Shown: positions 1 to 60,661 of the stretch, piece by piece
Layout of the letters: each line of letters opens with the position of its first letter
How positions within the stretch are numbered: the first letter of the stretch is position 1
Source: Chelonoidis abingdonii
Taxonomy: Eukaryota; Chordata; Testudines; Testudinidae
Assembly (NCBI RefSeq): GCF_003597395.2
Contig: NC_133782.1
Span: 10,285,060 to 10,349,059, forward strand
Length of the DNA: 64,000 nucleotides
Direction of reading: 5' to 3'
Notes under the pieces: model-generated
What the model was told of the DNA's origin: nothing
What the model saw: only the letters and a program-made list of their open reading frames with translations
Databases searched by the model: none
Program-made: the position numbers and the translations under genes

Positions 1-200
1 TCTTGGACTAAATGTAGCAGGAAACTTTTTTTTTTTTTAAATCTCATCTCTGATAATGAAGAGAAACTATCCAGGGCAGGAACACACAATACAGGACATG
101 GTATGCGTCCTCATACCCCCTGCAAAACACATTGGGGGAGATTTGCAAAGGTACCAATGGCAGGTAAGCACCTAACTCCCAATATTATGTATCAAGTGGT

Positions 201-2638: not shown

Positions 2639-5282
2639 TAGCCTTGTGCAAGGAATCCCCATGGAGACCATTGCTATCCTGGGAAGCAGGGATGGACCCC
2701 CTGGGCTGGCTCCTTGAATCCTCCTTCCCCAGTACCAATCCTGCCGTGTCCAGTGCCTTACACAGCTGCAGGGAGGACAGCAGGATTTCCGCCCCAGTAT
2801 TTAATTCATACCGAGCGAATCAGATACTTGTTTAATACCATCCCTCTCCTACAGTATAGCATCTAAATCCTTTCCAGTCTGCAGCTTTGTTCCCTTTCTT
2901 GCCTCCTCCAGTGTTTAGAAATGTGAGGGACGCCAAGCCAGGCATGTGCAAACCTCCCCACGCAGCTCAGCCCAGGTGTCTAAATCCTGACCCACAGCAA
3001 ACCTACTAATCCAGCTCTTAGCCTTTTGGAAGCAGAGGATGCCAGTTACAATGAACTGTGGTAAATTGCAAATTAGTGAAAGGGGGAAAACTGAGGCGAG
3101 GAAATCACCAAGATCATTTCACTCAGAGCCTAACTGGGATTTGAGCCCTAGACCTGAAGGGATGCTTGTTTAATTGCATTTTCCCCATTTGTTCACTTAT
3201 GTGTGGAGCCTTAGTTTACGCATGCAGCAGATTTTGACTTGGTACCGTCCAGACTAATTTAAAGCATATTTGCATTGTGCTGAGCTTCAGTGTTGCACCA
3301 TCGTGTGGCTACTTAATGCTGTAAACCGCAAATTTAAACACACAATGAAGGGGGGAAAAAACACCCTCTACTTGAATTTTTATTTGTTGCACCTTTGTAC
3401 CAGCAATTATGGTATTGTGCTAAGCATCATTTATTTTCTCTGTTGCTCTGTGGTATTTATATCATGCCAATCACTGCAATTTACACTGCATATTGACACA
3501 TGCTAATCCCACATGTGGACATCTGTATGTTCCAAGGCAATTGCAAGCGTAAGTCCCCTTTTTCCACCCACAAATGGCACTTTGCTTGTTCTCCGCAACC
3601 ACTGCACTTTTGAAAGTCATAAAAACAAATTTCCTAAAGTACCAGATAGAATTAAATCCACTAACCAGAGCACATCTGTCTCAAAGGAAAATAAAGGGAG
3701 ACATTTTTATCTTTCATTCTAACTTACCACTTAACAGAAATATACGAATAAGTTGGACAACCAAAAAGATTTTAGTATAAAGGACAAACTCTACCGCAAG
3801 CATACAGCACGAACACCCATTAAAACATAATGGGCTTCTCACCTTCCTTCTCTGTATCACCCATTAATTAAGATATAATTTTTTAACAGTGAGGCTAATT
3901 AATCACTGGAACAACGTCCTAACAAAACCAAATCTCCTCACCCCCGTCACCGCCAGACAACCTCCCTACCAAAAAAGAGATTCTTTATAAAGAGGTTTGT
4001 TTTGAAACTGAGCAACACTGAATATTCTGCCTTTACTTCTGCTGCTTTGTCCAGTAGCCTCCATATCCAGTTTACTGATGCCATCTTCTGGTTAGTTAGT
4101 TATGTATGTTTATGTAGCAAAAGCCTCAGTCAGAAGCTTTAGTATTTTATCAGTACTGTTAAAGAGTTTTCTAATCACATCCCAAAAATAGTTTTCCTTA
4201 TTTTTAAGAATGTTGATCAAATTAAATATTAGAAAATTATTAGTAAAGTAATAACATTCAGCATTTATGAATAATCATTATATTTTACAAAGACAGTTAT
4301 GAAAGTATGATTCCAACAATTTTGCTATGTTTCCCATAGTTGACCATTAAGATATGTTGACCATTAAGATATTTTATAATATTTACAATATATCTTATTG
4401 GTGGTATTCTCTCTGATCTGGCACCAGATTATCCCAAATCATTGGACATTCTACCCCTTGAGAGAAGGTGAACAAGAACAAACCATATGTAATAGATGTC
4501 AGGATGCTTAATGCACTACTGGAAACCACTCAAATACTACAGGATGAGGGTGGTATAAGAGCCTATATAGAACAGAGTCGCTCTTTATGTGCTGCTGGGA
4601 ATTTTCGGTGTGTCATAGAGTTGGGGGACTCTGTGCATCTGGGTTGTGAGATGAGATGTGAAACTGAGACCCTGACTACTTGTGGTCATTAAAGAGCCGA
4701 TAGGATTTTTTTATATTCACCCTAGTGTCCTGGCCAAATCCTGCATCAGGTAAATACATCCCGCCTAGCAAAATCTCCCCCTACAGTTTCAGCTGAATAT
4801 ACTGAACTTCACTTCCTGACCTAAATGTATGCGTAGTGTTGCTGAAATAAAGGGTTGATATTATTACCATTTTTGGTCTGAGTGGCTAGCCAAAATTTCA
4901 GAGTCCAGTAGACTGTTCCAACTAGAAGTGGAAATTGATGGAGTTTGGTATTTTCTTTGATGCAGCTTTGTTTATTTACAAAGAAGGTACAAAGTCCTGT
5001 GTCTCTGAGCACCGAGGGACTCAAATGACAGGAAACAGCTTCTTTTGCTCAGAGCACCGAGAGCTCTCATTTCAGCCTGCCCCTCTGACCCAAAACTTCT
5101 TTTCAGATTTCTTCCAAAGTCAGCTACCATGCTTTCAGCTGCTCCTTCAGGCTGTCTGTCTCACTCAGCCTGTTCCTGTCTGATCTCAGTTTCTGTGTGA
5201 TCTCTCTAGGTCTTTGTCCCCCTGTAGCAGCAAGGCCATATAAGAGGTTTATGGATCAGCTGCTGCTCCTGGCTATTAGGCG
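2639..5282. other. 3' flank of CDH26, no gene seen
   Basis: I find no supported coding exon or RNA gene here. The open frames are short and unrelated to known families. Part of it could belong to a long 3' UTR of CDH26 if a distal poly(A) site is used. Confidence 0.4.
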
Positions 5283-9400: not shown

Positions 9401-12400
9401 GCTTTGGCCTGCTAAACCCAGGGTTGTGAGTTTAATCTTTGAGAGGGCCATTTAGGGAACTAGGGCAAAAATCTGTCTGGGGATTGGTCCTGCTTTGAGC
9501 AGGGGGTTGGACTAGATGACCTTCTGAGGTCCTTCCAATTCTAATATCTACTTAGGGTGTTAAAAAGGGACCATTCCATTTACAAGAATATATAAACAAA
9601 CAAGTGGCTACCTCAGACATTTGTTTTCCTTTTCTAACTTCTGCACATGTAGAGAGTTGGCTGGCATAATCTGGCATAACCTGCAGAGGGCAGAGATGGA
9701 GACGTGCATTCATTAAATGTACAGAACAAAGGACTATTAATCCTTATTGGCTCCTAACCAATATTTTGCAGCCCCTGCCCTTCTTCATGTCATCTCTTAT
9801 TTCCCTGTTCTCACTAAACAGGCAGGTATCACATGGGAAATAGAGACAGAGGAGCCACTCAAATCTTTCCTCAGCAAAGCACCAGGTCTGCCTTGTTAAT
9901 ACATTCCAACGGGATGAGGTGTCCAAGAAGAAGGTTACCCAGAAAACCACTGGAATGGCAGAGGATGCATCAGAGTTAGTCCTCATTACCTGGATAACCC
10001 AATACCATACAGCAGGTCATTTTCCTGCCACATTCTGCTGAGAAAGGGAGGAGTGTTCTGCTCAAAACCAAATGACAGGAGATATGAGTGATAAGACCAG
10101 ATGGTTGATAATCTGGGCAGACAGATGTCAAGTTGGCAGGATCCTCACAATAGGAAAGTGGATATATGCTCAATTGCCCACCTGAAACAAAACGTTTTCA
10201 CACTCTACATTGTACTTGATTAAAGTCTGGTTGTCTTCTTCAAAAGGGAGATGGGCTTGGCTTTTCCTGTTTTCAGACCCACATGAACACCGCAGCAGAA
10301 GACAGCCTGCCACTGAAACAGGAAAAGAATTACCAGAACTACTGCTGACACCTCACAGCCTTTCAAAGCAGCCCCGCTGGCACCTCACTGAGCTCTATGA
10401 ATGTAGAGGTCAGATTTCGTATCATTCATTAATTCATTTTTCAGACATAGGAAATATCAGACTGGACTATACCAGGGGTCCAGCTAGCACAACATCCTGT
10501 CGCTGACAATGGCCAGCTCCAGCTGTTTCAAAGGAAGATGCGAGAAACCCCGCAATAGGCAATTGTGGAGTAACTTTCCTCCAAGGGAAATTTCTGTCTA
10601 ATCAACTCTCCAACACTGCCTACTATGAAGAACTCAAAGACGACCCCACACCACAAGAATTTAAGAATATCATCAAATCCTTCCCCCAAACAACTCCAAG
10701 AGAAATTCTACAAACTCATCCCCCAAAAACCCACCACTGGGACCTTCTACATGCTTCCCAAGATACAAACAAGGGAACCCAGGCAGACACATTATATCTG
10801 GCAATGATACTCTCAGTGAAGGAATATTCGGACTCCTAGAAACCATCTTCAAATCAGCCACCACACAAAAAGACTTCCTTTGACACAACCAACCCACAAA
10901 CTCCAGAACATCAACAATTTCCCTCAGGACACCATCTTTGCCACCATGGATGTCACTTATTTATACACCAACATCCCACACAATGACAGCATCACTGCCT
11001 GCCTCAAATATTTACAAGATGCTGGACAACACTCAGATCTCTACCCTGAACACATCGCCAAACTCATCCATTTCATCCTGACCCATAACAACTTTATATT
11101 CAACAACAAACATTTTGTTCAAACCATGGGAACAGCCATGGGTACTAGCATGGCTTTCCAATATGCCATCCTCTTCATGGGCCACTTGAAGAATTTCTGG
11201 ACAAATGTACCAGAAAACCACTGATAAACTTAAGATATGTCTATAATATTTTCATCCTCTGGATAGATGACCTAAAATTCCTCATAGATTTCCACCATAA
11301 CTTCAGCAGCCACCATCTGTCCATTAAATTCTCTCTGGAAAACTCCCACACTAGCATCAACTTCCTGCACACCAGAGTCAGTTTCAAGAATGGAACCCTA
11401 CAGACAACTATGTACAAGAATATGCTCTAAGGAGAAAGTCCAGGAAATACACTTTAGCGCACTGAAAACTGCCTTTACCAAACAAGAACACTCCACCAGA
11501 GAAGTGGATCACATCATGGTACCAGCCCTGAGAGAACCTACTTCAATACAGAAATAAAACACCACCTGCCCCCACACCTTTCCCTGTCACCTACCACCCC
11601 TTACTGGAACCCATAAGAGGAATCATCAAATAAATACAAACCATGCTCAGTGGGAACCCATCCTGAAAGAAATCTTTCCTGAATGCTCTCTGCTGGCCTT
11701 CAAACAATCCCCCAGCCTCTCCAAGCTCAGCATCAGAAGCAAGCTCCCCACTGACTAGGACATACCAACTCACAGCTGCACCAGACCCTGCCAAAACAGA
11801 TGCAAAACCTGCAGACATATCTCCACTGCTGCAGTGATCAACCCCTACCTCCATTGCTATCATAATAAATTGTATACCTCATTCAGTGCACTAACATGCC
11901 CAATTATAACTATGTGAGTGAAACCAACAATCACTACCATCTTGAATGAACTCACAGAGGAAAATAAGACAAAAAACACCACATCACTGTGAGTGAACAC
12001 TTTTCACAAAGTGATCGTGCTATATCTGACCTCTCTGTCCTCATCCTCAAAAGAAACCTGCACAACACCATCAAAAGACAAGCCCGGGAGCTTAAATTCA
12101 TAACTTTGCTAGACACTAAAAATCATGGATTAAATAGAGACACTGGATTTATGGTTTATTAAAACAATCTATAACTCACCAACAAAACCTATCCCACTCC
12201 CAGCTTCCCCCTTTTCCTTTCCTCCAGTGATGGGAGGTCCCTTGAAATCTGTGTTAGGCTAAACGATCTGTTCCACCTTGTACTGAGTGTCACAGCTAAA
12301 TACGTTTCCTAGACCTCAAGAAGAGTTCTGTGTAAGCTCGAAAGTTTGGCTCTTTCACCAACAGAAGTTGCCCCAACAATAGATATTGTTTCTCTAATAT

Positions 12401-55800: not shown

Positions 55801-55926
55801 CAGAGATTTTGTTTCCTTACTAACTTTGGAGGCTCTGAACCAGGGATCTGAGGTAAGGAACTTATGAACTCCCTTAAGATTGCTGCTTTCCCTGAGCCCT
55901 TCTTAAAGCGGATATTTGCTTTGTTA
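52831..55926. other. intergenic, minor repeats only
   Basis: Foldback repeat with perfect ends (ggcctgattttca / tgaaaatcaggcc) at 53157-53248; G-tract, GT and GA microsatellites at 53968-54010; a foldback of the agtaactcca type at 55031-55130. No gene seen. Confidence 0.45.
53968..54010. repeat. G-tract/(GT)n/(GA)n microsatellite
   Basis: Eleven or so G, then gtgtgtgtgag and a run of GA dinucleotides. Confidence 0.95.
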
Positions 55927-56106
55927 CCTTATAGACTAACAGACGTATTGGAGCATGAGCTTTCGTGGGTGAATACACATGCAGCCGACGAAGTGGGTAT
56001 TCACCCACGAAAGCTCATGCTCCAATATGTCTGTTAGTCTATAAGGTGCCACAGGACTCTTGCTGTTTTTACAGATCCAGACTAAAATGGCTACCCCTCT
56101 GATACT
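55927..56106. mobile_element. PLE 3'-end foldback dimer with perfect 10-bp TSD
   Basis: The target duplication TGCTTTGTTA flanks it exactly (55917-55926 and 56107-56116). The left arm (accttatagactaacagacg...) is the complement of the right arm (...gttagtctataaggt). Only the right side carries the terminal ctggcta-type end (ccagactaaaatggctaccc, ctctgatact). The centre is hammerhead-like: CCGACGA (55985-55991), 6-bp hairpin, GAAA (56009-56012). Confidence 0.85.
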
Positions 56107-56116
56107 TGCTTTGTTA

Positions 56117-57012
56117 GTATGTTTTGGTCTGGATCTACTACATGGTGTAAGAATAAAATATGTAAGAATTGTTATTTGGAGAAAACACAAGTTTAGTTCT
56201 ATAAATGAGGAAAGGAAGCTTTGTTCAGAGTACCAGGAGAACAGACTTGTGTGTTTATCAGGCCAAACTGGTATTCAGTAATTTAACAAGCATTATGACT
56301 TACACCAGTGGAATCACCATTCTTACCTGCTTGATGTATTTATTTGACCCAGATTCAGATACTGCGGAATACAAACTTTCATTTAAAAACAAAGCTTTCC
56401 AGCCCTCCTACCATAAACTACCATAGCTCTGTTTAAAGCAGATTGAAATAGTTCTTAGAGGTGGAGACTGCCACACTGATCTCAATGCTGAAAGCTAAGG
56501 ACTTTAATAGCAAATTTTATTTTAAAAATGTCAGTGCCAACTGACCATACAAAATGTGCAGGTATCTGGCTGCTTAACTTCTGTAACCGTGTATGCAAAC
56601 GATCAAATAAGTGCAATTTATATAGTCACTTTTCAGAGGAGAATCTTGTTTCAGGTAATACTCACTGAATGACAGGATTCTTTGTTTTACTGGAATTTGG
56701 TTTTTAAAATAAGTATTAATGATTATGGCCCTGCTCCTGCACACCTTTGCTCATGTGTGTAATCCTTACTCTTTAGTACTTTCACTGACTTACAGGGAAT
56801 TTCTCATGTGAATAAAAGAGTACTCATACGAATGAAAGTTTACAGGATTGGGCCAAAAGGATGAAATTCACCCTTTGGATTCAAGGCCTTTTGAGCCAAA
56901 AGGTGGAATTTCACGCTCTCCCTGAAAAACGATGCACCAGCAGATACAAGGATTGTACTGCAGCTTGCTGGTAGTCCCCCACACCCTCAAATAAAGCCAA
57001 TTTATCTGATCT
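56117..57012. other. intergenic, nothing recognised
   Basis: A diverged foldback repeat lies at 56728-56860 (ccctgctcctgcac... caggattgggcc). No gene. Confidence 0.4.
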
Positions 57013-57072
57013 TTGAACTTCGCCTTAGCTGACTACATGCAGTTGAACTTCGCCTTAGCTGACTACATGCAG
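57013..57072. repeat. perfect 30-bp tandem duplication
   Basis: The unit beginning ttgaacttcgccttagctga occurs twice without a mismatch (57013-57042 and 57043-57072). Confidence 0.98.
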
Positions 57073-57521
57073 TCATGACATGCAACTACATAGCTTTAAA
57101 ATAATTGCAACTTGGCTTGATTATTAAAAATGGAAAAAATACAATATATTAAAGTGATGTTCTTCCATCATTCTATCAGAGATCCACATGTTTAGCCTAG
57201 AGCTGACTAGGAAAACAACACTGAAAATCACTCAAACTATTCCTGAGCATATGACTTCATTTTGAATGTACAGTAAAATATACTATTTTATTACTACTTT
57301 TATGAGCATTCATATTTCCAAAGTACATACAAATACATGCTATAAAAGTTTATGGAGCTGAAGTCAGGCAGCACACAACGAAAATGAAACAACTCAGCAT
57401 TTTAGATAGCAAGTTCAAGCAATAGCAACATAATTTAAATTGCTTAATTTGTTCTCTTGTATTTACAGCTTCTTAATGTAAACCATAATAGGCAAGAACT
57501 ATGAAGAGTCATGATTTAGTC

Positions 57522-58067
57522 CAGGGGTAGACAACCTATGGCACACGTGCCAAAGGCGGCATGTGAGCTGATTTTCAGTGGTACTCACACTGCCCGGGTC
57601 CTGGCCACCCATACGGGGGGGCTCTGCATTTTAATTTATTTTTAAATGAAGCTTCTTAAACATTTTTAAAACCTTATTTACTTTACATACAACAATAGTT
57701 TAGTTATATATTATAGACTTATAGAAAGAGACCTTCTAAAAACATTAAAATGTATGACTGGCACGTGAAACCTTCAATTAGAGTGAATAAATGAAGACTC
57801 GGCACACCACTTCTGAAAGAAGAGGAGTACTTGTGGCACCTTAGAGACTAACACGTTTATTTCAGCATAAGCTTTTGTGGGCTACAGCTCACTTCTTCCG
57901 ATGCATAGAATGGATCCAAAGAAGTGAGCTGTAGCCCACGAAAGCTTATGCTGAAATAAACGTGTTAGTCTCTAAGGTGCCACAAGTACTCCTGTTCTTT
58001 TTGCAGATACAGACTAACATGGCTGCTACTCTGAAACCTGTCACTTCTGAAAGGTTGCCAACCCCTG
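57522..58067. mobile_element. hAT-type MITE interrupted by a PLE foldback
   Basis: Ends caggggtagacaacctatgg and complement (ggttgccaacccctg). Flanks atttagtc and acttagtc match at 7 of 8. Without the nested insert it is about 312 bp and matches 28834-29148 in inverse orientation. Confidence 0.9.
57819..58041. mobile_element. PLE 3'-end foldback dimer with perfect 11-bp TSD, nested in a hAT MITE
   Basis: CACTTCTGAAA flanks it exactly (57808-57818 and 58042-58052). Left arm gaggagtacttgtggcacct and on is the complement of the right arm ending aggtgccacaagtactcctg; only the right side has the terminal part (cagactaacatggctgctac, tctgaaacctgtc). The hairpin gtgagctgtagcccac with GAAA (57939-57942 region) sits near the centre, but its CTGANGA half is mutated in both arms. 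Confidence 0.85.
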
Positions 58068-59864
58068 ACTTAGTCATATGTCAAGTAACAGCTCTGATGC
58101 TGGTCCTTGGAGCAGAAGATTAGCATCTACTATATAAATATTTTCTTCTTTGCTTTGAGAAGGTGGGGCCATATCTTCAGTTGCTGTAAAACTGTGCCAT
58201 TCCATTGGCTTGGAATGACACCAGCTGATGATCTCATCCTTCAATTCTTTGGTAATTGTTACACTACTCTCTCTACTTTCCTGTCTTCCACAGAATTCTA
58301 GTCTCCCAAAACAAACACTTCAGCCCAAACATAGTCCTGAAACAGTGCCCAGTCCTCGCTGTAGAGTTACTTTCTGTGCCACATGACAGCAGCTTTCACT
58401 ATCTGGAGTTATTTCACCCACTCCTGAAATTGGAACCCAAACAAGGTGAAGCAGAGCAGGACAGTGCTATGGACAGTAGGTGGAGATGTATATAAGTGAC
58501 TGAAAAGGGACTAAAAATGTATTGGTGCTTCAGCAGAAAGCATGTAGAACACACCATGTAAACCCTCTCCCCAGGGGCCTGATTTTCAATGGGAGCTGCA
58601 GAGCTCAGCACGTTTGAAAATCACAATCTAATGGGATCCATCATTTTCCCTTATTCTTCAAGCCTCATAGGAGAGGTGAGACTGATCAGAAAGTACAAAA
58701 GTTTCATCTAGAAAGTTTGTTGGAGAGGAAGAGGGAGAGGAAATCACAACAGAGCAATAAGACAGTGGTCAAGTTCCTCAGAAATTTTCCGAGTAGGCTG
58801 GAAAAAGGGCCTTGAATATAAATTATTGGGAGAGGGGGAAAGGTTCAGGCAACAAAAAAGGCTTAAGAGATCATTATAGATGCCATATGTATGAGCCTGA
58901 AGGTTTCCTTAGGCATTTTATGTGGGACATTCTGGACAAGGAAGGAGTAACCATAAAATCAATCTATAGCTGTCCCAGACCAACTAGAAAAATGCTATAC
59001 CAAACCCTCCATCTTTTCTGTCCACTGATCAGTTTGTTTTAGTCAAAGAAATTCTTTAGAGTTAGGGAAAGCAGTGCCACAAAACACAGTAACTTCAAAA
59101 GTATAGGGCAATGGTTACTTCTGTGTCTTTGGTCTAGACATTGAAAGAAATGTGTAATTATCATAATTCTTGGGCTACCTTGCTCCTGACAACTCTCATC
59201 TCTCCCTGCTGACCAGGTAGGAGAAATCACACTAAAGAAAGATATGAAAAAGGCAGACTCCAGTTCCCAGGGACAGGTGTCCATGTCACGAAAGCCACCA
59301 CCACAAATGGCAGCCCCAGCAATGAGAGGGAAGAATGGTCTGAAATACTGAATTACCACAGACCTGAGGAGGAGGTCTGAAAGGGGAAGGCTGCCACTCT
59401 CACAGCCCAGGATGTGTAGACAAATAACTTCATTCAATAGGGCTGTCAGTTCACTTTTCACCAGCATGACAGTCACATCCTCTTTTTAAAGCTATGAAAG
59501 AGGAGCTGATTGAAGTGAGAAGTTTGGAATAGCTGGGCTTTAACTCATTCCTGCTCCTGGGAAATGGTAACATTACTCCACTGGGCTTAATTTTGTTTCC
59601 AACATTTGAGGGGAAAATATTTTCAAGGTTGTTTGAATCCAATTACTGTCACTTGTAACAGTGTGATTTTATGTAGACAAAACCAGGCTGTTGTCTCACA
59701 ACAAACTTATCTTTACTGAAAAAAAGGGAAGAGATGCATCTTTTCTCTAAACCATTGTGGGCCCAACCCTACAAGCTTTTCAGTAACTTCAACCTCCATT
59801 GCCATCACTAGGAGCTCAGAATGAACAGGCGCTTTCAAGATAAAGGGCCCAATCACAACAGAGT
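58068..59864. other. intergenic, nothing recognised
   Basis: A 145-codon minus-strand frame at 59039-59476 has no recognisable domain, no visible splice context and no repeat identity. I treat it as chance. Confidence 0.4.
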
Positions 59865-59986
59865 GAACATAAGAATGGCCACACAGGGTCAGATCTGTAG
59901 TCCCATCTAGCTCAGTATCCTGTCTCCTGACAGTGGCCAGTACCAGAGGCTTCAGAGGCCATGAACAGAACAGGTCAATTATCAAG

Positions 59987-60191
59987 TATCAGAGGGGTAG
60001 CCGTGTTAATCTGGATCTGTAAAAGCAGCAGAGAATCCTGTGGCACCTTATAGACTAACAGATGTTTTGGAGCATGAGCTTTCGTGGGTGAATACCCACT
60101 TCGTCAGACGCATGACGAAGTGGGTATTCACCCATGAAAGCTCATGCTCCAAAACGTCTGTTAGTCTATAAGGTGCCACAGGATTCTCTGC
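59987..60191. mobile_element. PLE 3'-end foldback dimer with perfect 13-bp TSD, nested in CR1
   Basis: GTCAATTATCAAG flanks it exactly (59974-59986 and 60192-60204). Here the full terminus (tatcagaggggtagccgtgt) is on the left and the right arm stops at caggattctctgc. Arms about 60030-60107 and 60114-60190 are inverted copies. The centre carries an intact hammerhead-like core on the minus strand. Confidence 0.88.
60069..60107 (-). ncRNA. intact hammerhead-ribozyme-like core
   Basis: Minus strand in order: CTGACGA (60107-60101), A, six-pair stem GTGGGT/ACCCAC with loop ATTC (60099-60084), GAAA (60083-60080), a two-pair mini-stem GC-TCAT-GC (60079-60072), then TC (60071-60070), the expected UH cleavage position. 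This is the architecture reported for Penelope-like elements. Stem I pairing is not obvious, so activity is uncertain. Confidence 0.6.
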
Positions 60192-60661
60192 GTCAATTAT
60201 CAAGTGATCCATCCCTGTCATCCAGTCCCAGCTCCTGACAGGCAGAGGCTTAGGGGCACCCAGGGCACAGGGTTGTATCCCTGACCATCTTAGCTCATAG
60301 GCCCATCAATAGCTATCCTCCATTATTTATCTAATTCTTTTTTGAACCCAGTTATACTTCTGGCCTTCACAACATCCCCTGGCAACGAGATCCACAGGTT
60401 GACTGTGCACTGTGAAAAGAAGTACTTCTTTATGTTTGTTTTAATTCTGCTGCCTATTAGTTTCATTGGGAGACCCCTGGTTCCTGTTTGTGAAAGGGTA
60501 AATAACACTTCTTTATGCCCCCCTTAGTCATATCTTTTCTAAGCTGAATAGTCCCAGTCTTTTTAGTCTCTTCTTATATGGAAGTTGTTCCATGCCCTTA
60601 ATTATTTTTGTTGCCCTTCTCTCTACTTTTTCCAATTCTAACCTTTTTTTGAGATGGGATG

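Follow-up and report, generated by a model that had tools for sequence, protein, structure and literature searches.

Short inverted dimers of pLTRs in the turtle Chelonoidis abingdonii are insertions of Penelope-like elements (PLEs), probably produced by target-primed reverse transcription that began at each of the two broken target ends. PLEs have been counted as a third retroelement class. On how they finish an insertion, self-priming has been proposed for their inverted pLTRs (PMC3846280), as against a purified enzyme that cuts and extends both strands (PMC11167929). Small natural dimers record both start points and both end points of the cDNAs and can therefore discriminate between these ideas; the ones analysed here speak for synthesis that began at both ends of the target.

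Three such inserts (A, B and C; Table 1) lie in the window, by which we mean the whole stretch of 64,000 nucleotides that was analysed. They are real head-to-head inverted dimers, and their target duplications (TSDs) of 10, 11 and 13 bp were verified, in agreement with a sequence-only reading of the window. That reading had one arm stopping 30-40 nt short of the 3′ end, whereas the shortfall is 60 nt in A, 44 nt in B and 41 nt in C. The arm that reaches the outer 3′ end and bears the tail is called R here, and the antisense one that lacks the tail L. The arms are complementary at 92% (A), 95% (B) and 97% (C) of positions. In the top foldback of the window 59 of 60 arm bases are paired, compared with 32-35 in ten dinucleotide-preserving shuffles.

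Table 1. Inverted dimers in the window and their parts (positions in the window)
Feature	Positions	Strand	Description
Insert A, whole	55927-56106		TSD TGCTTTGTTA
A target duplication, left copy	55917..55926	.	TGCTTTGTTA
A L arm	55927..55979	-	antisense; without 3′-terminal 60 nt; start ~+69, end in stem II loop, +18
A R arm	55978..56106	+	sense; extends to outer 3′ end
A hammerhead-like core	55985..56012	+	CCGACGA - stem II - GAAA; U4 = C in A
A target duplication, right copy	56107..56116	.	
Insert B, whole	57819-58041		TSD CACTTCTGAAA
B target duplication, left copy	57808..57818	.	CACTTCTGAAA
B L arm	57819..57909	-	antisense; outer end 44 nt short; longer at centre, continuing through sense GGATCCATTCTATGCATCGG
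B R arm	57910..58041	+	sense; 3′ end complete; begins within core at AAAGAAGTGAG
B target duplication, right copy	58042..58052	.	
Insert C, whole	59987-60191		TSD GTCAATTATCAAG
C target duplication, first copy	59974..59986	.	GTCAATTATCAAG
C R arm	59987..60113	-	sense on minus strand; 3′ end complete
C core	60080..60107	-	CTGACGA - stem II - GAAA
C L arm	60114..60191	+	antisense with respect to R; short by 41 nt
C target duplication, second copy	60192..60204	.	

The termini had been called Penelope-type, and they are indeed pLTRs of PLEs, preceded in long copies by a GIY-YIG-type endonuclease frame. In copy L089 an ORF (3264-3623) lies directly 5′ of the pLTR at 3695. The ORF itself has no GIY-YIG Pfam match; relatives are named or profiled as GIY-YIG, P0004 scoring above and P0007 just below the Pfam cut-off. 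Homologous body sequence adjoins the pLTRs in L087, L088, L090, L091 and L043, and the minus strand of L087 encodes YTDDIFIIW, a candidate trace of a telomerase-like reverse transcriptase, upstream of an endonuclease-like piece and a pLTR. The reverse transcriptase (RT) fragments gave no Pfam match, and partial relatives carry PF00078 (P0010, P0012). A PDB search returned nothing relevant, and exact patterns had no match in viral and bacterial collections. Two hallmarks of PLEs are present: a GIY-YIG endonuclease coded beside the termini, and a pLTR with a tail (about 39 nt in the turtle), an inverted 5′ pLTR and a short TSD. Kilobase-long copies with an inverted pLTR share the plan of the short dimers (L088, L089, L090), and L065, L072 and L075 are long foldbacks. 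The termini are not those of an unrelated SINE lacking full-length PLE copies, a possibility raised with the sequence-only reading.

The motif CTGANGA-hairpin-GAAA had been placed at every symmetry centre. The literal string is found in C (minus strand, 60080-60107) and is absent from A, which reads CCGACGA, and from B, whose left arm reads CGGAAGA in sense. A hammerhead-like core adjoins the centre, and folding predicts that hammerhead geometry is feasible in the RNA of some copies: part of them combine the CUGANGA...GAAA motif with a predicted, near-isoenergetic hammerhead-type fold. Position +7 is C in 34/67 arms and T in 29/67; about half of the copies have CCGA instead of CTGA. The covariance models suggested as a check gave nothing above chance, the Rfam hammerhead families having no match at the gathering score in the whole window or at E<=10 in 55900-60250.

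Further copies were collected from the genome (2.26 Gb), which protein matches likewise mark as a turtle's. A tail-only query supplied an architecture-blind set, in which 40 of 642 candidates were scored and yielded 24 short foldbacks. The foldback-query set (n = 24) is biased, since the query's own centre resembled the recurrent GAATAC/ATGCATC junction. In all, 54 foldbacks were dissected, and there are 51 dated inserts. The queries needed a tail, so pairs without tails were invisible. Left out were insert B from the A-family counts, a query across the palindromic centre of C and the 40 places matched by the tail of C from all counts, L026 and L028 (tail on both arms, orientation ambiguous) from the junction counts, and L071 (Ns). 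Spurious short L matches (score <12) were taken as monomers (L056, L068, L070, L072, L077, L081, L085); L072, placed among the monomers at first, proved to be a long foldback. The B-family tail had no match against the whole genome, its words probably being too common.

Each dimer was inserted as one unit, as had been supposed: TSDs are present in 51 of the 54 dissected foldbacks and measure 10-16 bp in 47 of these 51. The outer ends of the arms form two clusters, and that of the L arm is tight, falling at +85..+99 in 46/51 dated inserts and 19/23 in the tail set. All dated foldbacks, obtained with tail-requiring queries only, pair an outer with an inner end. For the two-tailed cases L026 and L028 no TSD was found, and L026 seemingly continues into the element body. 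Among the copies examined, none is clearly a tail-less single insert; L043 lacks the tail, but an antisense piece and Ns lie beside it, its other arm running into the Ns. Another query gave an antisense partner in 10 of 40 loci, with apparent outer ends at about +47..+75 in 8 of the 10, which seemed contrary to the tight L start. In the two of these loci that were re-examined, the matches had broken off too early, for which an extra A in the query is the probable cause; the end lies at +92 at least in L092 and at about +79 in L093.

The inner ends of L, by contrast with its outer end, are scattered (-15 to +50 in the tail set), so that the L arm was probably begun at its outer end. Either arm can be the longer at the centre. 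Among the 24 architecture-blind foldbacks, L outreaches R by >=5 nt in 10, R outreaches L by as much in 8, and the two agree within 4 nt in 5; the remaining one, L078, is nested (the script scores it as L-longer). With shared bases assigned to R the tally becomes 11/10/3, and by the same rule R is longer in 24/24 of the biased foldback-query set. L062 (GGATGCATGTATTCACC) is the mirror of the common GAATACATGCATCC. The main cluster of arm ends in the architecture-blind set (20/48) is at -3..+4, the putative RNA 5′ end, and 18 of the 24 foldbacks turn within 3 nt of it or before it, as judged by the stop of the longer arm. Arm ends are not concentrated at the predicted ribozyme cut (1/48 at +36..39, 3/48 at +34..39). 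Whether ribozyme cleavage or the hairpin sets the turning point had been asked; ribozyme cleavage does not, nor does the hairpin by itself, and the turn-around points are largely scattered without relation to the hairpin, a pattern that had been named as refuting the sequence-only reading. A fixed hairpin turning point was rejected.

The sequences of the two arms are also informative. At the A/T subfamily site +48 they are discordant in 4/23 tail-set loci (17/1618 at other A/T sites) and in 0/24 of the foldback-query set; the script lists a fifth tail-set case, L083, which by eye is an alignment artefact. Some dimers thus seem to hold two RNAs. Rare variants are shared between the arms of a locus 11 times, in 8/52 loci (shuffled mean 0.96, maximum 5), and across 28 loci the two arms show no fixed difference. 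The arms of a locus usually match, so that in most cases a single RNA, or else two RNAs of common source, would have been copied. Such a match is explained more simply by a cDNA snapping back on itself than by priming at two ends.

We favor the following course of events. A staggered double cut would leave two 3′ ends at the target. One would prime at an outer start site on the pLTR RNA (about +124..+135) and give the R arm, the other at an inner start site (about +85..+99) and give the L arm, the PLE 'tail' corresponding to the 39 nt that separate these sites. Both minus-strand cDNAs would head for the 5′ end of a capped, uncleaved template, probably the A two bases before ATGCATC, 30 nt below the TATA box, or would halt early. 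Their 3′ ends would anneal and join head-to-head, often via 1-7 nt that are shared or palindromic (e.g., ATGCAT), with fill-in thereafter. The kilobase-long copies L088, L089 and L090, which follow the same plan, support this model. Several observations weaken it. The arms of a locus usually match, no clean tail-less single insert was seen, and the two-tailed cases had no TSD. The constant outer/inner pair is not predicted by the anole enzyme, for which the accessible text gives no strand difference in start site (PMC11167929), and either arm of a palindrome might also have been shortened by a later deletion at its centre.

A tight L outer end, a variable landing point and occasional chimeras would also result if RT ran along the sense RNA as far as its 5′ end before jumping to an antisense element RNA, whose own 5′ end fixed the outer end of L. 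Bidirectional pLTR promoters have been suggested for the rotifer Penelope (PMC3846280). We consider such a jump unlikely: counted roughly along the published RNA, the L outer end is about where the anole inner start site would fall, the published tail is the difference between RT start sites (PMC11167929), and the antisense RNA is purely hypothetical here.

The sequence-only reading had the cDNA from one target end reach the hairpin, fold back, copy itself and stop short of the 3′ end. Arms that are usually single-source, nested centres in which cDNA ends were able to flip locally (L052, L078), and an R arm that is longer at many centres (8/24, besides the biased set) agree with such snap-back copying. 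Under it, however, the R arm with its tail must be the one that extends further at the centre, and the tail-less L arm is longer in 10/24 architecture-blind foldbacks and in insert B. An L arm longer at the centre yet without the tail means that R was not copied from L, nor L from R. The tight outer and scattered inner ends of L, the different subfamily alleles in 4/23 loci and the loopless ATGCAT centres (L020, L027, R36 in L036), which are ill-suited to an intramolecular hairpin, also speak against it. As the only route snap-back is largely refuted, and its part in these dimers is improbable.

Palindromes could have been perfect at birth, by any route, and later asymmetric central deletions would then shorten either arm randomly. 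Both L-longer and R-longer centres are expected in that case, and 13/20 tail-set centres lacking inserted bases have 1-7 nt of microhomology. We give this little credence, as the longer arm mostly ends at the putative RNA 5′ end, the arms are short (about 90 bp), and non-native junction bases, e.g., the extra G before ACATGCATC in L013, L015, L061 and L069, resemble products of reverse transcription. A master foldback, transcribed and retroposed as a dimer with its centre inherited, is very improbable and was rejected for most architecture-blind copies, whose centres are nearly all different: the GAATAC/ATGCATC junction with 3 shared bases is exact in 11/24 of the foldback-query set, where the query had a similar centre, but occurs once in the 24 architecture-blind foldbacks, and the 28 loci without a fixed difference between the arms also speak against a master.

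Priming from both target ends has a more specific form, which we put forward only tentatively and would not yet bet on. PLEs may finish the second strand without LINE-like second-strand priming: two reverse transcripts, one for each end of the target and in many cases both read from a single RNA bearing two start sites, would anneal via the palindrome at the RNA 5′ end, each then priming the other. If so, the 5′ palindrome of the pLTR would serve to join the two, and full-length elements would carry its scar in their inverted pLTR.

The turtle core resembles the minimal type I hammerheads of PLEs (PMC7761336, as far as its accessible text goes), which likewise have CTGANGA, a short stem II and GAAA with helix III nearly absent; this placement is our own. 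It differs in that about half of the turtle copies read CCGA and none of the Rfam models matched, and ribozyme activity is putative, judged from sequence. The Poseidon PLE of Anolis carolinensis (PAc) also has a hammerhead motif at its pLTR, in a different sequence family. Its enzyme cleaves both strands of the target, extends each of them and uses two internal RT start sites, the spacing of which is the 30-40 nt tail (PMC11167929); by our approximate count along the published RNA, these sites and those in the turtle are similarly distant from GAAA. The main text of that paper draws no link to inverted dimers ('palindrom' has 0 matches, and 'inverted' is found only in inverted dT). In the endonuclease-bearing Penelope of Adineta vaga, head-to-head pLTRs occur as well, with TSDs of 8-10 bp, an optional 31-bp tail on one inverted pLTR, an inverted 5′ pLTR 37 bp shorter and, as in the turtle, junction palindromes and a TATA box, there 20 bp before an initiator-like site (PMC3846280, accessible text). 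The A. vaga pLTRs mostly flank an ORF or a long insert, whereas in the turtle pLTR-only dimers of about 180-220 bp prevail. That study preferred self-priming on an antisense template, which the turtle centres do not fit. Head-to-head pLTRs and their tails were described previously; the evidence on mechanism is new.

The sequence-only reading had described three inverted dimers, each framed by a perfect target duplication, and both points stand: inserts A, B and C lie where they had been placed, with strongly complementary arms, and their duplications are all exact direct repeats (see table). A chance origin of these foldbacks is excluded, because 59 bases match in the window's best foldback of 60 bases, as against 32-35 in ten shuffles. 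One arm had been thought to fall 30-40 bases short of the other; the measured unmatched ends of the longer arms exceed that range in all three. Insert B is nested in a hAT-like transposon, which ends in CAGGGGTAGACAACCT / CAGGGGTTGGCAACCT and is flanked by an 8-bp repeat whose two copies differ at one base (ATTTAGTC/ACTTAGTC).

Features of the window and, for the dimers, their measurements
Feature	Positions	Strand	Target duplication (bp)	Arm complementarity (%)	Unmatched end of longer arm (nt)	Remark
Decayed Penelope-like coding copy	10700-12400	+				RT-type and EN-type stretches, many stops
Tandem duplication	57013-57072					30 bp, exact
Insert A	55927-56106		10	92	60	
Transposon	57523-58066					Hosts insert B; presumably hAT
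Insert B	57819-58041		11	95	44	
Surroundings of insert C	59870-60640					Resemble what we take to be a CR1 LINE tail
Insert C	59987-60191		13	97	41	

On homology, these are the termini of a Penelope-like element (PLE), as had been proposed. The pLTR in locus L089 comes after an ORF whose relatives are GIY-YIG nucleases, and body homologous to that of L089 adjoins pLTRs in L087, L088, L090, L091 and L043. L087 codes for a putative reverse-transcriptase (RT) piece, YTDDIFIIW; the order is RT, EN, pLTR, with partial matches on the RT side. The assembly that holds the window measures 2.26 Gb, and its protein matches, to Chelonia, Gopherus, Lepidochelys, Caretta and Chrysemys, make the host a turtle. 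Three matched proteins filed under Listeria and Morganella (P0004, P0008, P0012) show a 54-86% match to turtle Penelope EN/RT over part of the query, and are probably animal DNA inside bacterial records.

R denotes the arm extending to the outer 3' end, and L its partner. Position 0 is the A of ATGCATC[C/T]GACG on a real long copy, L065; this ruler has one extra A near +47, so that beyond it mapped arm positions and ends dated by target duplication run one high. Copies were gathered in three samples. The first query was itself a foldback; of its 2563 candidates 40 were scored, and all 28 dissected loci were foldbacks; without the window insert (L001) and L009, which also belong to the tail set, these loci form the biased set. 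The second query took in only the final 66 bases of the R arm and was otherwise blind to architecture. The 40 scored among its 642 candidates (the tail set) comprise 24 short foldbacks, 3 kb-long foldbacks (at L065, L072 and L075, whose complete forms are L089, L088 and L090 respectively), 12 single or unresolved places and 1 with Ns. The third, drawn from contigs C1 and C2 at fixed steps and 200 kb in total, held 7 copies of the two families, five of them A-type; four of these were foldbacks (L031, L034, L036, L048) and the fifth, L043, has an antisense piece continuing into Ns.

The arms of tail-set foldbacks are unequal at the centre, and either may be the longer. Counted by furthest extents, L exceeds R by 5 nt or more in 10 of the 24 (L049, L050, L057, L061, L062, L063, L069, L079, L083, L084), R is longer in 8 (L054, L059, L060, L073, L080, L086, L001, L009), the two lie within 4 nt in 5, and one, L078, scored L-longer by the script, is nested; with shared bases assigned to R the counts become 11, 10 and 3. 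By eye, L is longer in L092 and R in L093, two further loci. On that same assignment R is longer in all 24 of the biased set, whose query had R longer, and two of these (L020, L027) are really symmetrical. In nested centres (L052, L078) the sequence changes direction two or more times, which would suit a cDNA end that folded back briefly before it was joined. Two fixed-step loci, L031 (about 2124-2240) and L034 (1345-1467), have their turning point in or next to an internal ACGT palindrome near +50, with arms about equal; no such centre occurs among the 24 tail-set foldbacks.

These centres bear on the ribozyme. The longer arm stops at or before +3 in 18 of the 24. GAAA falls at +30; by our placement (stem I GCAU/AUGC, cut at GAAAGCUC^AUGC) any hammerhead cut would come at +37/+38. 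A turn-around at that predicted cut, which had been entertained, is contradicted by the 48 tail-set arm ends, of which 1 lies at +36 to +39 as against 20 at -3 to +4 (5 lie at +17 to +21 and 3 at +34 to +39). The core CTGANGA...GAAA attributed to every insert is literal only in C; A reads CCGACGA and the left arm of B reads CGGAAGA in sense. Position +7 in dissected arms (n = 67) is T in 29 and C in 34, a state partly linked to the subfamily site at +48, and because CTGA and CCGA are thus about equally common, roughly one copy in two lacks the hammerhead U4. The hammerhead-type fold of L065 and L022 reaches -12.9 versus -14.1 kcal/mol for the best fold, and a hammerhead family search of the window with Rfam returned no hammerhead.

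A target duplication of 6-18 bp, commonest at 12, flanks 51 of the 54 dissected foldbacks and defines the first base of each arm. In all 51 dated foldbacks R ends at +124 to +135, a range favoured by sampling because the queries contain the tail. L ends at +85 to +99 in 46 of the 51 (19 of 23 in the architecture-blind set alone), and in the others, insert A among them, at +60 to +82.

We think it probable that two reverse transcripts, each begun at one target end, account for this anatomy. The two cDNAs would then join where their ends share a short sequence or are palindromic (ATGCAT at 0; in L031 and L034, at or next to ACGT near +50), a joining that we infer from the centres. Such two-ended synthesis covers centres with either arm longer, the L outer ends, loopless centres, and kb-long copies with similar ends. 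It has weak points. A template jump is one, although unlikely, and later trimming of palindromes is another, about as unlikely. In each of the dated dimers an outer start is combined with an inner one, a uniformity that tells against two-ended synthesis, although tail-bearing queries could not reveal tail-less pairs; nor was a clean tail-less single insert found among the fetched loci. Snap-back copying, the mechanism of the sequence-only reading, makes L a copy of R and is just as improbable as trimming: L could not then exceed R at the centre, as it does in those ten tail-set foldbacks and in insert B, its outer end would mark where copying stopped, and loopless ATGCAT centres (L020, L027 and R36, the foldback in L036) could arise only with difficulty. 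On the same grounds the turtle dimers do not fit self-priming on an antisense template, which the authors of PMC3846280 preferred for rotifer Penelope.

Two-ended synthesis leaves room for one RNA or two. Rare variants are common to both arms far more often than in shuffled pairs: there are 11 such cases, spread over 8 of the 52 loci (shuffles: mean 0.96, maximum 5 in 1000), one example being an identical small deletion in L054. At +48 the script scores the arms as matching at 17 of the 23 tail-set loci; of the six mismatches, those in L052 and L083 are by eye artefacts of alignment, and the 4 remaining discordances exceed the background of 17 in 1618 A/T sites. None of 24 is discordant in the biased set; L028, outside that count, disagrees. 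Since rare variants are shared between arms, yet +48 discordance is above background, a single RNA source gave rise to most dimers, and two sources probably to a minority.

Long copies continue upstream of 0 with TATATATACCTGCCCCTGGAAATTTCCACTACATGCATC and close variants (L065, L074, L075, L043); L066 has a CA repeat in place of TATA. With the TATA box beginning about 32 nt upstream of 0, transcription is expected to begin near A(-2). Four arms passing A(-2) (L013, L015, L061, L069) have a G there that is missing from long copies, which would match the expected product of copying a cap but is suggestive only. A template RNA left uncut by the ribozyme would fit the anole element, whose ribozyme mutants insert normally (PMC11167929).

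In their excerpted parts, neither PMC3846280 nor PMC11167929 connects inverted pLTR dimers with two-start, two-strand activity, and two-ended synthesis as the cause of dimers is announced neither in the titles and abstract openings surveyed nor in the excerpt of PMC12910113; such silence does not prove novelty. The components have been described: for PLEs, pLTRs in inverted orientation, tails and palindromes at the junction (PMC3846280), and two start sites with two-strand activity (PMC11167929). The anole enzyme initiates reverse transcription at two sites that lie one tail apart, and it acts on both strands of the target, cutting and extending each (PMC11167929); in the turtle, the roughly 39 nt that separate the L and R outer-end clusters equal the size of a PLE tail.
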